A DNA stretch of 64,000 nucleotides from Glutinoglossum americanum (taxonomy: Eukaryota; Ascomycota; Geoglossomycetes; Geoglossales; Geoglossaceae): the NCBI GenBank assembly GCA_020080175.1, contig JAGHQL010000071.1, forward strand, positions 55,386 through 119,385, given 5' to 3'. The position numbers and the translations under genes were made by a program. The notes beneath the pieces were generated by a model. That model was not told where the DNA came from and made no database searches. It saw only the letters and a program-made list of their open reading frames with translations. Below, piece after piece: positions 25,803-59,228 of this stretch (position 1 is the stretch's first letter; the number at the start of each line of letters is the position of its first letter).

Positions 25803-28800
25803 GTGCGTCGATACCGGATCTCGAAAAGTAGGGATCGGCTACTGATCCATCTTAGTATTATTGCGGTACATGGGTTGAACCCCTTCAACAGCAAAACCCA
25901 TGCCTTTGATACCTGGACGAAGGCCTCCGATAACCGTAGTCAGCTTTGGCTTCGAGACGATCTGCCAGAGGTCGCACCAAATTCGCGAGTCTTCATCTAC
26001 GAATATGATTCATTCCCAGCATTGACTCAGAGTAAAAGGCGCTTCGTCCATGAGGCTAACGATTTTCTTGAGTGCCTCGATAATGAAAAATTCACTGTAA
26101 GAGGCTATTACCAAGTCCGCGTCAGAGCCATACTTATCATCTATCCAGGACCCAAATCGACCTCTCATTTTCGTCGCGCACAGCCTTGGAGGAATTCTCG
26201 TTAAACAGGTTGAACCACTTGCGCTTTTGATTGGGACTCAAGCTAATGGGCAAGAAAGGCTCTCGTGAATGCGGTTAGTAACAGACACTACGCAGCGATC
26301 AAAGATGCAACGTAAGCATGCCTGTCTGATCCAACGAACTTCTTATATCTAACGATGGTAGATGCGGCCTTGTTTTTTTCGGAACACCCCATGCGGGCGG
26401 CAATGATGGTCTCGTCACATTAGGTCGGGTCTCTGCCAGCATCGTAAATGCGCTATCCCTCTCATCGACGAATGACCTGATGGAAGCGGTTAGATCCGGT
26501 TCTTTGTATGCGGACGTCTTAGAGGAGGGTTGGAGACAACAGCTTAATGATTTTAAAATCGTCTCGTTATACGAGGGCATTGGGAATGTGAGTACTAGCA
26601 AAAGTAATCTATGGGACGACCATTAAACTAAAGGATGTTGCTCAGATTGTGTCTCGTGAATCGGCCTCTTTCGGACTTCCGGGTGATGTGGAAAACATTG
26701 TTCGTTTGAAGGCAGATCATAGCAACATGTGTCGTTTCGATACAACGGTCCAGGCAGATCTGGATAATTTTAAGATTGTACGGGGAAATATGCATCGGCT
26801 TTACATGGCTGCGATGAACCGCAACCCCGCGCCGACTGCCACCTCAATGGTGCCGGCCTAGGCAAATTCTCTTGGCCTAGGTGTGTAATCGTAGCCTCAA
26901 GATTTGTTCTTCCTGGCGCAGCATTAATTCGGCTATAATTTATCTAATCGTGTACCACTCAATATGTTCCCGATGTAGTTTGATCCTCAAGATGACAATT
27001 TACCAACTGATAGCTCTACGTAGATCCTATTGCCTCACAGGTTCAACCTAACCCTCAACCCCCAGGGCAATTAATACGGCGGGATACTGCTGTTAGCAGC
27101 GTCGACATCCCCTTGTTACCTGAAGCAGTATCTCTCAGTGCCCTTGGCGTAGGCGAGCAAAGGAACTTTTCATTCCTTTTTTCCCACTCGAGCGAAATGC
27201 CGTTAATGCAACTCGTTATACCTTCATACGTTAGATCTTTCCGTCACTACGATTATGAGAAGGGATTTGAACGAATTGATCGAGAAAGACACCCTAATAC
27301 ATGCCAATGGATCAGTCAGAATGAGAATATTAAGTGGTGGTCCGCAAGTCGGCGCAATAGCCTGCTCTGGCTTTCTGGTGACCCTGGCCTCGGCAAATCC
27401 ACACTGCTAACATATTTGACACATCTCCTGAGGGGGCGACCTCGACATCTTAATGTTGGCAAAAACAGTGCTGTCATCTACAGTTTTTGCAATGAGCAAG
27501 CGAATAATACTGGAAGTATGGTCTTATCTGTTGCCATTCATCAAATGTTGACGCAATTTCCGCATCTCCAACATCGTGCCTATGAACCCGACCAGGCACA
27601 TTGCCTAGGGAATACACGCTGGCGGGTCACCAAGGGTAAACACCGGTCGGTTGCTGGACTGTGGCACCTTCTTTGCCAACTTGCCAAAGAATCTCGTCTT
27701 AGCCGGGTATTCCTGATAGTCGATGCTCTCGATGAATGTGACAAAGGGTCCCAGGTTGAACTTATACAATTGTTTTACCGAGCTGTTCCCTGTCTGAAGG
27801 TCTTAGTTTCCAGTCGGCCTAGCGAAGAACTAAGAACGGCATTTTCGAAATGGATGACTCATTCGCCTGAGACCATCAAGTGCCTAAAGGCTGAAGACGA
27901 GGAGGCTCATGTCAATGATGACATCGACCGGTATATCCATGGGGAGGTTGAACGAATCGGAAAACTCAGAGGCCACTCTCCCCAACAGAGCAAAATGATA
28001 ATCGAGAGACTGGCACAAGATCGTTCGAGGATTTTCCTTCCAGTGGCCTTGCTGTTCAATAGACTGGAGCTGGAGCCAACAAGCGAATTGGCTAGGGTAC
28101 TGGAAGAAACCCCCAATGACCTTCAGGTTCTGTACGAAAGATTGCTTTCTCAAATCCCTTCATCGGTCCGCTCAAGGCCATCCGCAATATTCAAGTATCT
28201 CATTCACGCTTGCACGCCTCTCACAGTACGCGAATTAGCCTTCGCTAGCAGTACTGATCAGGACCGCGCTCATTGCGAGGAGATGATGGCCGGCTTCTTG
28301 AGCGACAGTCATCTGACAAGCTTTCGAAAAGATCTGCTACTCTATGGGCCTATACTAAGGATTCGGCAAGATGACGACACTGTTAATTTTATACATGTTT
28401 CTGTGAAGGAGTTCCTAGTTGAGCGCTCGCTTTCACCTATGGAACCGTTTCTCATTGAACCCCGCCAGGCTCAAAAGGGGATTGCTGCCGACTGCCTTAA
28501 GTTGCTGCTTTCGAAAGCTCACTTGGTCTTTCCCGGACCGTGGGATCGGGGGTTTATAGACGCGCCGATGGCGCCCGAGCACGTTCTTTTGGGGTATGCT
28601 TCGCAATATTGGTATGAGCACCTAAAACAGGCAACCTTATTCATGCCTTCGGTCGAGGATGTCGATCCCGAGCTTCTATCCCTTGCCAGGGACCTTGCAG
28701 ACCTTTGGAAATACCCTTCTACTCTAGGATTTCGTGCACTACTACTGTCACGCAGCGGTTTCCACGGCCTCAACAAACAAGAGCTTGAAAAAATTTCTCC

Positions 28801-29995
28801 GATAGAAGTTTTCAGCGCGCTAGGGCTATCCTCGTTTCTACAGGTTCTTTTGCGTGAGATCACTGGATCTGCCTCCTATCTGATGCCAAGCACTATGTCT
28901 GCCCTTACACTCGCAATTAAAGGAGGACACGAATCGACAGTAGATATAATCGTTGACCGGTTTAAAATCTCCTCCCTTGAAAGCCCAGCGTTCGGGGATG
29001 TAGTCGCAGATTCAGCGTGGACCGGCCGACCGGGGCCTTTGAGGAAGGTGCTCGAGCTACGAAAAGCGCGAACACATAAGTTGGTCGAGGCCACCACCGC
29101 AGCTTTCTTAACAGGGCAACACGCAACGCTAGCAGCACTTACCGCTGACCGGTCTATCTTCGAAGACCGTAATCAGTTTGATATGACAGTGCTGCACGTT
29201 TTATTCGTTAAAAACCTCCAGAACTACCAGCTTGCCCCAGATACAGCACTCGCAATCGCATTGTACTACATCACAAATAAGGTTGATATCAAGGCAACAG
29301 ACGTCCTGGGCAACACAGCTCTGCATTATGCCTGCTGGGGTAGGTATTTTTGCACCGCGGAGTTGATTAGGGGTCTCGTCGAGAAAGGGGCAGATATTCA
29401 CTGCCGTAATTATGGTGGCTTGACTCCTTTTCATTTCGCGGCGAGGTATGTAAAACGCCTTGACGCGATCGAAGCTCTTCTGCAAATTGGTGGTAATGGC
29501 ATCGTCGCCGCGGCATCCAATGGCAAGATGACTCCATTACATTGGGCTGTTGCGCGCTGGTGTGGGCTTGGTTATGAAGATAGCGAACCTGTCATACGTA
29601 CTCTTCTCTCACGCGGAGCTGATATGCAAGCTACGAACTCAAGAGGCGCTACTCCATTGCAATTAGCATCTGGCTCGGCTATGCGCTACGTCCTTCAGTC
29701 CGTCTACGCAAGGCTAGATGGCATACAACATATTTCCGTTAACTATAATCCCCAGCCACCGAGGTACATCGGCCACGATTTCGAACGCACGCCTGACCAA
29801 ATGAGTCTATGCAATGGAGACTCCGAGGACTCATCCAGCCAGCTCGTCCTCGACCAGGAATCGTGGGAAAATGAAAGTCACCAAAGTTTTGTCACGGCGC
29901 CACAGAGCATTATGTCTATAGAATCTGGATCAAGCAGTGGCCATTCTGGCAGAACACGGCGGCTCTGGGTACGTATGGGAGGATGGTGGAGGTGA
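25803..29995 (+). CDS. NLR-like protein: alpha/beta-hydrolase (SesB/SERAC1 type), NACHT and ankyrin repeats
   Basis: Exons that splice in frame: to 26096, 26149-26208, 26259-26311, 26362-26587, 26646-26849 (weak GTGCCG donor) and 27041-29995. The hydrolase part reads IIAVHGLNP, then FVAHSLGG with the nucleophile Ser, GLVFFGTPHAGG, and the ADHSNMCRFD block with the likely His. The NACHT NTPase follows: GDPGLGKST (Walker A, about 27378-27405), VFLIVDALDECD (Walker B, about 27710) and VSSRPSEE. Ankyrin repeats cover about 29300-29690 (GNTALHYACWG, GLTPFHFAAR, KMTPLHWAVA, GATPLQLASG). In fungi this architecture belongs to STAND receptors used in non-self recognition, with the hydrolase as effector and the repeats as sensor. 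The true 5' exon is not identified; an acceptor at 25855 would start this exon. The stop at 26859-26861 is avoided only if the 191-nt intron 26850-27040 is real. Confidence 0.85.
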
Positions 29996-53451: not shown

Positions 53452-56235
53452 ATGGCTCAGACTACCGGCCATCAAAATCGCCTTCTGGCACTGGACAGAC
53501 ACTTCCCTTCGCCATGGCGTCATAAGACAGATTCTGATATCGAAAGCATCGCCAGGATACTGAGGTCAAGTGACCTGAAACAATGGGCGAAGGAGGCCCG
53601 TCTCTACAGCATCCTCCGCATGATCGACCGCTTAGATTTAATGGATGATCTCCTCCATCGAGGCTTCAGGGACCTTTGGCTCCCGCTCCCTTCACTAAGA
53701 ATTCCATCAGCCCTAAGGAGCGAGTTTGCGAAAGCCCAGAAGTATGTGCTCACTCGGGACTTTTCAGGCACTGCCAGGTGGCCATATCGCAGACATCTAT
53801 CCTTCAGCCAAGAACAGGACGTTCCCCTAGGGCATCGCCATCGACGAGAGATTGGCAATTACGAGGTAGATTTGGTTTATGAATCCTCAGGCAACCAGTC
53901 ACTAGCAACCAAGTGCTGGCGGCGTGGGCCCAAGTTGGAAGACGACCTAGTAATGAAAATGATTCAGCAGGAAATACGGATCACCAAGCGCCTCTGTCAC
54001 CGCCATTGCGTTGAGTATGTTGGGAGTTATACAACCACCACATCCGTCGGCCTACTGATCCTCCCGGTAGCGGAGCGTGACCTTCTAACATTTCTCCGCA
54101 GCGCTGAGTGTAATATATCTGAATATGTGCTATGCCAGAGTTGGTTCGGGTGTCTGACATCCGCTCTACTCTACCTGCACAACAACAATATCAGGCAAGC
54201 CCTCAGCTTTGAACCGAAAGCTCACTCCGCTCCACTAACTATCGGACAGTAATATCGATATTCGGCCCGATAGCCTTTTAGTCGCAAATAATTCAATCTT
54301 CTTGGCGGGCTTTAGCATTAGGTAGGTAACTAATTAGTATTCTCCTATGACGCTAGAAGCTGAAGTTCTTCAGTTCGGACTGCAAAAGGAGCTCAGTCGG
54401 AGCCGTAAATGGATCCGGCGTCAACTCACTACGCTACGTCTCTCCTGAGGGATGCAATCAAGGTGACTTAATTGGTTCCTCGGATGTCTGGTCTCTAGGC
54501 TGTGTGTTCTTGGAAATGCTCACCGTCATAGCCCGTCGTGGTGTAGCTCACCTCGAGCGGTGGTTGGTGAGCCATTCCCCGGATAGTAACGGAGTCTATG
54601 GTAGAGCTACTTCAACCATACTGCTATATATTCAGCAATTTCTCAGACAGCGTTTCTGGCCCTCGGATCCAAGAGTTGTAGACCTCACTCAGGGAATGCT
54701 AGACCCCAGAGCTGAGAACCGCCCAACTGCCAGACAGATTGCCTCCCAGCTGAGGGGTATCTCAGAAGATGGACCTCAATGGTGCGGCCGCTGCTGTATT
54801 AAGCATCTCACCGATGACGGTGGCCTAGAAGGCTTATACCATTTTGTAGCTAGACAAGAGGCTTTTACTGAGGCAGATATCCAGTTTATCAGTCGCAGGC
54901 TAGCGTGGGATCGGCTGCTTGAATGGTCTTCTATACCGCGAACGTATATTGTCCTATGCTTGATGGACAAGTTGGATCTCATGCCAAAATTTCTCCAGGC
55001 TGGCGTCTCTGATATCTGGTTCCCATATGATAAACAGCTCATTCGACAATTGCTAAGCAACCAGCAGGTCGTTCAGGATTTCTTAGCAAAGCAAAACACG
55101 GTTTTGAGCAAGAAGCTTGTAGTAGATGTGCATCAGCATCAGCACATCTTGGATGGGGACGGGGACGAGTACCTTCCACGGATCAAGGGACTGGGGTCGG
55201 GTGGCTTCGGGTCTGTTTGGCATGTGTACGATCCTGGAAGCGATCGCGAGCTCGCAAAGAAACTCATACCACGAGTCAAAGTAGTTCTCGAGAACCGGGC
55301 AAAAGACGCTGCCAATATCTTCCAGAGAGAGCTAGCCACTCTGCGGCGTCTGTCTGTCAAAGAACATCGACATCTCGTCAGGGTAGTTGGTAGTTACACC
55401 GACCAAAGCGACTTTGTGCTCTTATTTTCTCCTGTTGCCGACATGAACCTAGGAACCTACCTCGATGATAGGACACCACAGAGAGATTTTAAACATCTCG
55501 AGCGCTGGTTTGGCTGCCTGGCTACAGCATTGCAGTACCTTCACAACATGAAAATCCGGTGCGTCCAGGGTTTCTGATTTGGTAACATAGCAGCGCTAAC
55601 TTACTCAGACACAAGGACATAAAGCCACAAAACGTTTTGGTCAAGGGAGACAACGTTTTGCTTGCGGATTTTGGAATCAGGTAAGGACATGACCGCCCGT
55701 CTCGTCTGGCTCAGCCACTGAATCAAGATGCAGCTATGATTGGAGCAGTAACTCGCGTCCCACAACATCCGGACCAGGGTCGCGGGATCCGCGATACTGC
55801 GCACCAGAGGTCGCTGACTGGGAAGCTCGTAACGAATCATCCGACATCTTCTCACTAGGGTGTGTGTTCCTTGAGATGTTCTCTACACTCAAAGGCCACC
55901 CACCCCTAAAAATCCGACAGTACTTCGAAGAGAATGGGACTGGCGCGACCTGGTACCACAAGAACCAGGAAGCTCTGAGATCCTTCTCCAACCTGCTCTA
56001 TAATGAAACGGAAATCGGCGACCGCCCACCACTATCCTGGATAAGTGCAATGACCTGCTCAGAGAGAAGCAGGCGCCTTAGTTCCAGCGCACTAGTGGAA
56101 AGAATTTTGGATACAGAGGGGATGAATGAACAGCAGATCAACAGATTTTGCGGAAAGTGCTGCATTGCAGCTTACACGGCTAGTAATACCGCAACATCCG
56201 AACTCGCGCTATCTGGGAATGCGAGGGGGTCTTAA
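53452..56235 (+). CDS. Tandem pseudokinase-kinase protein, five exons, 857 aa
   Basis: Exons 53452-54194, 54250-54321, 54374-55558, 55609-55680 and 55734-56235 join in frame. Two copies of one unit are present: a helical lead-in (ILRMIDRLDLMDDLL in copy 1, VLCLMDKLDLMPKFL in copy 2) and then a protein-kinase fold. Copy 2 looks active: GSGGFGSVW, ELAKKLI, RHKDIKPQNVLV (Asp670), LADFGIS (Asp687) and YCAPE. Copy 1 is degraded: no Gly loop, SNIDIRPDSLLV in place of HKD and LAGFSIS in place of LADFGIS, so the metal-binding Asp is gone (Gly268), though YVSPE and SDVWSLGCVFLEM remain. Introns sit at the same place and phase in both copies and the short exons between them are both 72 nt. Intron 1 has a GC donor. 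It probably is a Ser/Thr kinase controlled by its pseudokinase half. Confidence 0.85.
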
Positions 56236-57595: not shown

Positions 57596-59228
57596 CTAAT
57601 TAGCCAATTCGTGAGGGTCGAGTTCATAGGGGAGCTCAACCGGGTATTGCGGTGGGTGTGAAGGATGCCCCATCCGGTGTGGCTGCTGTAGCTGTGGATC
57701 GTACTGGCGGCCTGGGTTGGAGTGCCTGTATGCGTGGTCCCCTCCTGAGTGGTACCCGTGGGCCGGGGTCCGCTGCCAGCGAGGTATATGGTGGGGGGTT
57801 CTGGCCCCAGGCGTACTCAAGTTAACATAGCGCATCGCTGCGATTGTAGGGCATCTTCGCCTGCGGTAGTTGACGAGTTGTTGCGCGCAATCGTTGAGCT
57901 CATTCCGGACATCGATTTGGTCAAGATAGCGGCGAGTGGCGCTCTCTATTGCGGAAAACGTAATGCTGTGATTGCCGACAACGCCCTTCCACTCGTCCAT
58001 TTCCACGTCACCGAGTCCGGTGTCGACATTAAAGCGATAATATGGAATCCCCCAATGCCGGGCTGTCTCGGTCATATGCCTATGCACTCTCTCCGGGTCC
58101 ATTAAAGACCTGTCGGAATTGCCGACCAAGCCAAGAGACTTTCTGAGTGCCCGGACCCTACTGAAAGTAGAGAGTGGTGCTCCTATACCGTTACCGATGC
58201 TCACAAGGACCCCGACAGGGCAGTATTGGGCCGCCGAGGCCCCAGTCTCCTGCCTATACATGGAGCAAGCCTCGTTGAAACCTTCCACACTCGGGTTATT
58301 TTCCCAGGTTCCGCCGTCTCTAAAGTGGCTACCATTGATTTCGACCTTGCGAAAGTAGCGAGGAGTGGCAAAAGTCGCCATGGCTGCTTCCCAGACGTAG
58401 CAGTTGATATTTACATCCGGGTTGCGGTTTCGAGCCTGTTCACGTGGGTGCGGAGAGGCACCAATAGGAGTGCGGGGGTAAGATCGTAATAAGTGAGGTG
58501 TCTCCGTTGCGCGCTTGGCTTTCAGGATCGTTAAAATAGTTCTGTTTAATTAGTGCTAGGCTCAACTATTTGGACATTTAAAACCCACGTTCGGCAGCGA
58601 CTCTCCTCGCCAGTTGTATGCAGTAGGGCATCGGGTTGGTCTTGCGCTGACTCGTCCGTCGAGACACGATCTCTGACCAAACCTACTACAAATTTCTTGA
58701 GCTTTCGGTGGCTGTACTGGTTGTGCTTGAAGTGCCGCTTCTTTGCAATAATTGTCTCCCCCAAGCGGTTGTACTCTTCTTTGCAAGCATCGATATTCAT
58801 GCGGAGACGACCGAGCATTATTGCAATAAATCTGCAGTCCATTTGTTAACACCTCGCCTACAGAAGCCGGGCCTTGCCGGGTTACTTACCCTCCTGTGTT
58901 TGTTCCCACCACATAGTCAAAGTAGTGACAAGGAACTGGTGGATTTTGGTCGGAAGCTCTTGGGTCATATTGGCTCATCGGTTCATCGTGTTCTGCCACC
59001 GAGGGGAGACGAGCGTCTTCGGTTCTCTCAAGCTCTCCAACCTTGGCCATAAGCCGCTCGAGGATTAATAGGCTAGAGTAACTCCTGATCCACCCGCCGT
59101 CTACAAACAATCAACGTTAGAAGCTGCTAGAATCTTGGAAGTGAATGGCTGGACTTGCCTAGAGTTAGAATGATGTCTTTCGTGGGGTCATGGCCTGGGG
59201 GGTCCCTTGAGGAAGAACCGGCATTCAT
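57596..59228 (-). CDS. Patatin-like phospholipase-fold protein with lost catalytic motifs, four exons, 489 aa
   Basis: Exons 59228-59159, 59100-58890, 58831-58589 and 58541-57596 join in frame, restoring ILTLDGG, GTNTGGFIAIMLGRL, RCRTTILTILKAK and HLLRSY. Patatin proteins cut acyl chains from lipids with a Ser-Asp dyad. Here the GxSxG nucleophile elbow reads GTNTGG: Ser is replaced by Asn91 (codon AAC). The oxyanion loop, normally DGGGxRG, reads DGGWIRS at residues 24-30. The dyad Asp is kept (RDGGTWENNP, Asp250). The C-terminus is His/Pro/Gln-rich and looks disordered. Intron 1 uses a GC donor (GCAAGT). The frame is otherwise intact over 489 codons, so it is probably an expressed pseudoenzyme and not a dead gene, although recent inactivation cannot be excluded. 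Confidence 0.82.

Follow-up and report, generated by a model that had tools for sequence, protein, structure and literature searches.

A putative tandem pseudokinase-kinase gene in the earth tongue Glutinoglossum americanum, most likely formed by duplication of an intron-bearing unit

The Janus kinases, animal tyrosine kinases with FERM-SH2 regions, place a pseudokinase before the kinase, the order also found in the fungal gene described here. A pseudokinase stands immediately before a kinase within a single protein in Gcn2 as well, and in yeast Gcn2 the pseudokinase contacts the adjoining kinase for activation, according to the available text of PMC4014428. Plant tandem kinase-pseudokinases (TKPs) such as WTK1/Yr15 and RPG1 combine a kinase and a pseudokinase with no other named domain; the available text of PMC6170490 gives duplication as a common origin (52/92), proposes a decoy role and likens these proteins to the Janus kinases. 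Fungal HELL proteins join a helical domain to a kinase or pseudokinase in an MLKL-like manner, HELL being a membrane-targeting bundle, and no tandem layout is described in the available text of PMC12881547. In the open-access literature on fungal tandem kinases, fungal pseudokinases and NLR kinases, as far as its available text extends, no description of a pseudokinase-kinase unit tandem was found.

The stretch of DNA analyzed here (the window; 64,000 nucleotides) comes from Glutinoglossum americanum, an earth tongue of the Geoglossomycetes, and contains at 53452-56235 (+) one gene of five exons encoding 857 residues plus a stop. The gene consists of two head-to-tail copies of a unit made up of a helical lead-in, a protein kinase and a Cys-rich tail, an architecture shared with a single-unit fungal family whose members have only one unit and retain the catalytic residues. 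As in Gcn2, the pseudokinase of the window protein immediately precedes the kinase, but the RWD and HisRS-like domains of Gcn2 were found in neither half at E values up to 0.01; we infer that the Gcn2 pair and the window pair had separate origins. A Gcn2-like locus of the same genome (L042, G000:C5) encodes an RWD domain, a degenerate kinase (HKDLHANN, DGG) and a kinase with HRD and DFG, and its HisRS-like match is weak (22 bits, cut-off 25). With the plant TKPs the window protein shares the tandem of kinase and pseudokinase with no further named domain, but the plant proteins are members of plant kinase families, the kinase of WTK1 precedes its pseudokinase, and no such lead-in is described in the available text of PMC6170490. 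Neither NACHT nor NB-ARC domains were found in either half at E values up to 0.01, so that the make-up of a fungal NLR (NACHT/NB-ARC plus repeats) is absent at that threshold, and the only named families matched in the two halves were kinase families. The lead-in had no Pfam match at E values up to 1, HeLo and HELL included; its predicted helices are short (4-14 residues), and its predicted fold is SAM-like by weak matches only.

All features of the gene lie on the + strand. Exon 1 (53452..54194) encodes the copy 1 lead-in and the kinase as far as helix E, and is followed by intron 1 (54195..54249; 55 nt, GC-AG, phase 2), which contains a branch-like CTAAC with its end 10 nt upstream of the acceptor. 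Exon 2 (54250..54321; 72 nt) encodes a degenerate catalytic loop, N-I-D-I-R-P-D-S, with GFS in place of DFG, and contains the codons of Asn249 (54251-54253) and Gly268 (54308-54310). Following intron 2 (54322..54373; 52 nt, GT-AG, phase 2), exon 3 (54374..55558; 1185 nt) encodes the copy 1 C-lobe and tail, the junction, and the copy 2 lead-in and kinase to helix E. Intron 3 (55559..55608; 50 nt, GT-AG, phase 2) matches intron 1 in codon position; exon 4 (55609..55680; 72 nt) encodes an intact loop, H-K-D-I-K-P-Q-N, and DFG, with the codons of His668 at 55610-55612 and Asp687 at 55667-55669; intron 4 (55681..55733; 53 nt, GT-AG, phase 2) matches intron 2 in codon position; and exon 5 (55734..56235) encodes the copy 2 activation loop, C-lobe, tail and stop. 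The lead-ins were delimited at 53497..53826 in copy 1 (about residues 16-125, by alignment to copy 2 and the family profile) and at 54831..55178 in copy 2, where the region is predicted to be helical and SAM-like. Both halves have a C-x-x-C-C motif in the tail, C-G-R-C-C at 54783..54797 and C-G-K-C-C at 56149..56163, of which the last two Cys are conserved across the family. A profile of the unit (396 positions), built from 196 relatives and copy 2, matched copy 1 with 297 bits over positions 3-395 and copy 2 with 451 bits over positions 2-395.

The initial annotation described both halves as the same helical lead-in plus kinase, and the halves are indeed homologous: 104 of 323 residues are identical by BLASTP (32%, E 1e-41), and the half-versus-half local score is 364, whereas the best of 200 shuffles reached 62. 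Counted in codons, the inner exon boundaries lie at 247.67, 271.67, 666.67 and 690.67, pairs that are 419.0 codons apart, so the equal codon positions and phases of the paired introns, the 72-nt inner exons and the constant 419-codon offset reported earlier all stand, with all four introns in phase 2. An origin by internal duplication that carried the introns along was also proposed, and it agrees with a survey of the best 30 of 98 own-genome matches to copy 2, from which the window's own three, L039 (a repeat of L018) and L032 (frameshifted at the first intron site, with no intron seen there) were left out. In the 25 own-genome relatives that could be aligned through both sites, neither position holds an intron, and some of these relatives have introns at other places. 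The largest insert at query positions 238-271 is 12 residues (36 nt), in one of the 25 loci, and 20 of the 25 have no insert; inserts in the relatives thus measure at most 36 nt, versus 50-55 nt for the introns of the window gene. Among the genes read, then, only the two halves have this pair of introns, which makes a common origin from one intron-bearing unit the most likely one.

Both kinases belong to the protein kinase superfamily by their PF00069 matches (copy 1, 86.3 bits; copy 2, 123.4 bits; cut-off 31.7). Among the best 60 matches to solved structures by sequence, CDK4/6 came first for the copy 2 kinase and MAP3K5 for the copy 1 kinase, which is information at the general kinase level only and gives no family placement. 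Every key residue is present in copy 2, as initially annotated. Copy 1 has Asn249 for the HxD His, Gly268 for the DFG Asp and a broken Gly loop, losses that were all noted before, and in addition lacks the catalytic-loop Lys and Asn and the DFG Gly. It retains the catalytic Asp of the HxD motif (N-I-D), the ATP-binding VAIK Lys, the helix-C Glu, the DFG Phe and the helix-F Asp. Loss of at least one of the VAIK Lys, HRD Asp and DFG Asp marks a pseudokinase by sequence, and copy 1 qualifies as one, by sequence, through Gly268. The missing residues are nearly invariant in 60 single-unit rows, which include two broken own-genome copies: the catalytic-loop Asn and Lys are each present in 60/60, the DFG Asp and the HxD Asp in 59/60, and each of the His, Asp, Lys, Asn and DFG residues in 58-60 of the 60. 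Copy 1 is expected to be inactive and copy 2 active, judging from these residues. Some kinases that lack the metal-binding residues still transfer phosphate, as CASK does, and together with the retained catalytic Asp this counts against the inactivity of copy 1.

Three protein searches, each of which scored only the 7990-7993 candidates sharing the most words, listed 120 of 678, 105, and 120 of 365 matches and yielded 295 proteins; the search with a two-row alignment did not list P0002, itself one of its rows, which indicates a limited reach for tandems. Every row with a named organism among the 120 of 678 matches listed was from a fungus. Of 296 sequences scored (the 295 and the window protein), 211 match the whole unit in one stretch, such as the single-unit relatives P0003 and P0025. 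Some relatives carry other domains: P0229, P0235 and P0142 have an Hsp70 and a kinase of the window family, in P0229 in the order Hsp70 and then the whole unit, and P0110 (Aspergillus bertholletiae) has an ENTH domain followed by the whole unit. Two overlapping profile stretches were found in 14 of the 296: the window protein, its database entry P0001, P0002 and 11 others. Two kinases per protein, as in the window gene, are present in P0010, P0021, P0023, P0037, P0038, P0123, P0043, P0231, P0279 and P0284. In nine of the 11 others the first stretch begins past profile position 85, with no lead-in matched (nine of the ten two-kinase proteins), and in P0043 it begins at position 48. P0241 has a second lead-in only, seemingly two lead-ins before one kinase, as might arise if part of the unit had been duplicated. 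Six of the 11 have ankyrin repeats and/or a fungal lectin. All eight first copies compared (P0023, P0037 and P0241 left out) have HxD, Lys, Asn and DFG. Thus two-kinase proteins take several forms in the family, and a degenerate first copy was found, among those compared, only in the window gene and P0002. A locus of the same genome (L041, G000:C1:381035-383106, -) encodes two wider-family kinases in tandem with HxD and DFG in both, and perhaps resembles P0231 and P0279.

A search of fungal proteins for two-copy versions of the unit had been suggested, and besides the window's P0001 it found one protein of the same layout among those listed, P0002 of Dendryphion nanum (Dothideomycetes, Pleosporales). 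P0002 has two units in the same order as in the window gene, with an intact copy 2 whose lead-in seems truncated as annotated (profile from position 22). Its copy 1 is degenerate at the same four positions, namely the catalytic-loop Lys and Asn and the DFG Asp and Gly; both copy 1s have Ser for the catalytic-loop Asn kept in 60/60 single-unit rows, and both keep the VAIK Lys, helix-C Glu and DFG Phe. P0002 copy 1 differs from that of the window in reading H-S-N-I-N-P-L-S and NFE, with Asn replacing the HxD Asp. The earlier view of copy 1 as a kept pseudokinase, not a freshly damaged one, is favored by this degenerate copy 1 of P0002, and recent damage was rejected as the main reading because the sole same-layout homolog found also has a degenerate copy 1. 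The MAD6 defence kinase, the best NCBIfam match of P0002, was set aside at 90 of 460 bits, far below the cut-off. In the predicted structure of the D. nanum tandem the copy 1 kinase had pLDDT mostly under 50, probably due to relatives that were aligned to copy 2; no domain contact was seen, and the model was set aside.

The constraint on copy 1 can be estimated from columns conserved in the single-unit relatives. In the 72 columns with at least 90% conservation, the window copy 1 retains 55 and copy 2 retains 65, and P0002 copy 1 retains 41, the copy 2 rows of the two species having 65 and 66; in the 73 columns with 70-90% conservation, the corresponding numbers are 34 for the window copy 1, 18 for P0002 copy 1 and 52 and 42 for the copy 2 rows. 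Retention drops in less conserved columns in all rows, those of intact copies too, and the slope alone proves nothing; the argument for constraint, such as can be read from residues, is the 76% of copy 1 set against the 90% of copy 2. Outside the catalytic set the window copy 1 is, by this measure of its residues, close to the intact copies. In a set of 80 columns, hand-copied with conservation rounded to 0.90, it has lost 6/10 catalytic or nucleotide-binding residues versus 14/70 others (one-sided Fisher p 0.013); for P0002 copy 1 the numbers are 6/10 catalytic versus 32/70 others, an excess that is not significant (p 0.31). The lack of stops in copy 1 is little proof of function, since a stop in copy 1 would remove copy 2 as well. 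Copy 1 is probably a kept pseudokinase.

The copies of the two species pair by position in both trees that were built. In a quick tree of 80 rows support is 99 for the copy 2 pair as sisters and 85 for the copy 1 pair, and in a careful tree of 52 rows (the 80 minus 28 divergent or redundant rows) the support is 100/100 and 99/95, respectively. Two long branches meet in the copy 1 pairing, which may be false according to a warning of the program; when P0002 copy 1 is left out, no supported group holds the window copy 1. The end branches of copy 1 are about three and about five times those of copy 2 (1.65 versus 0.54 and 3.83 versus 0.80). Independent duplication in each species is disfavored, as a pairing of the window copies 1 and 2 is rejected with p-AU 0.0009 in a test that shares the model's pull on long branches; a clade of all four copies (p-AU 0.19) and a grouping of the window copy 1 with both copy 2 rows (p-AU 0.077) are not rejected. 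The trees by themselves leave a sister relationship of copy 1 and copy 2 undemonstrated. Shared rare residues were tried as proof of that relationship and discarded, the window copy 1 having three such columns and the 60 single-unit rows averaging 1.2 and reaching 5. The tandem looks older than either gene, as one old tandem inherited by or transferred into both lineages; patchy loss and transfer cannot be told apart with two genes in two classes only.

The reading preferred here, with modest confidence, is that internal duplication produced one signaling protein in which copy 2 is a working kinase and copy 1 a kept pseudokinase that regulates copy 2 in cis, a mode of action preferred on account of the Gcn2 parallel. 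Copy 1 would be unable to place Mg-ATP normally and would hold copy 2 off, or prop it on, by direct domain contact; binding or modification of copy 1 or its lead-in would flip the switch, and the lead-ins might let the protein self-associate. Both regulation in cis and self-association are inferences. Fusions of sister units to fungal NLR-type domains make non-self or stress sensing the leading guess for what the protein responds to.

An unlikely alternative is that the gene is an analog of the plant TKPs, in which copy 1 would be a decoy or sensor whose disturbance frees copy 2 for cell death or defence. The initial annotation had already raised the possibility of an analogous immune regulator. 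The layout, frequent duplication origin and proposed decoy role of the plant proteins agree with it, as do relatives in which the whole unit is fused to the NACHT-type domain NPHP3_N (P0102), to PNP_UDP_1 (P0264) or to ankyrin repeats (P0065). In their available text, PMC10197012 counts kinases as one N-terminal class of fungal NLRs and PMC12258605 treats kinases as possible integrated decoys. The unit is C-terminal in P0102 and P0264, and so is the kinase in 9/12 Sordariales NLRs that have one, by the available text of PMC12258605; in P0156, a protein with a kinase and HET, the lead-in was unmatched. Being rare and changing fast, copy 1 resembles an arms-race gene, but fast change also fits relaxed constraint, no NLR domain was found in the tandem protein itself at E values up to 0.01, and the immune-type genes found lie 23-51 kb away, except for a patatin-like one.

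That neighborhood was described earlier as one of HET, NLR-like and patatin genes. Of the other open frames in the window, 22 have 180 codons or more, and 20 of these were scanned, so that genes made of shorter exons may add to the list. The patatin-like piece does adjoin the tandem gene at a distance of 1.4 kb, but the two HET genes (98-2518, - and 3658-6222, -) are 47-51 kb away and the NACHT-ankyrin gene (27014-29992, +), after which come transport and aromatic-metabolism genes, is 23 kb away, so the neighbors give the immune role little support. The patatin-like piece (57599-58549, -) is below the Pfam cut-off (22.7 bits versus 27.7) and its match covers a C-terminal piece only. The patatin-like gene as a whole (57599-59110, -) has GTNTGG where patatins usually have the nucleophile elbow GTSTGG, with what looks like a GT-AG intron directly after it, and DGGWIRS in place of DGGGIRG; by these motifs the gene may encode a dead lipase. 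About 1.2 kb before the window start there is a wider-family kinase (L009, 3311-4219; G000:C287:53311-54219, +) with the catalytic loop H-G-D and DFS at the position of DFG.

Less probable again is that copy 1 became useless after the duplication and is retained as it lies in frame upstream of copy 2, serving at most as a spacer. The long end branches of copy 1 and the 41 of 72 conserved columns kept by P0002 copy 1 are in keeping with such a relict, and tandem neighbors in this family do decay, as at L040 (G000:C29), where a multi-stop kinase copy (4469-5154) is followed after 0.7 kb by a lead-in and kinase that look intact (5842-7108). The 55 of 72 highly conserved columns kept by the window copy 1, and its match of 297 bits to nearly the entire unit profile, argue against it. 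Lower in probability than either of these alternatives is the wider proposal that fungi independently evolved a plant-type tandem pseudokinase-kinase immune receptor, kept across two fungal classes, in which copy 1 would be a diversifying sensor or decoy and copy 2 the output kinase.

The annotated protein of the locus (P0001; FGG08_003866; 775 aa) is built on a different model. Removal of 54015-54373 (GT...AG, with a GTATGT donor) reproduces P0001 exactly except for two residues at the start, where the public model begins two residues earlier by way of an upstream exon; this model avoids the GC-AG intron 1 and drops copy 1 from the end of helix C through the DFG position. The five-exon model is taken here as the right one, on sequence grounds, because the stretch removed by the public model aligns with conserved family sequence. 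That the locus is instead two adjoining genes or wrongly modeled, or that the real transcript lacks the copy 1 catalytic loop, is highly improbable, for although intron 1 requires a GC-AG splice and the public cut has its own GTATGT donor, the sequence cut is conserved in the family, the introns of copy 1 sit at the same codons and in the same phase as their counterparts in copy 2, P0001 and P0002 each hold two halves in one protein, and exon 3 stays in a single open frame for 1185 nt through the junction of the halves (a chance of approximately 6e-9 for 395 uniform random codons), which also bears out, as far as a reading frame can, the initial annotation of one gene across both halves.

With copy 1 read as a kept pseudokinase beside a working copy 2, the window gene adds a further setting, beside Gcn2 and the tandem kinases of plants and animals, in which one of two neighboring kinases would have lost catalysis yet stayed. 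The gene also exposes an unnamed domain, the lead-in, which was matched in 221 of the 296 sequences scored and occurs in a large family of fungal kinases that includes fusions to NLR-type parts. The compact gene would be a convenient one in which to ask if tandem pseudokinases take part in fungal non-self recognition.
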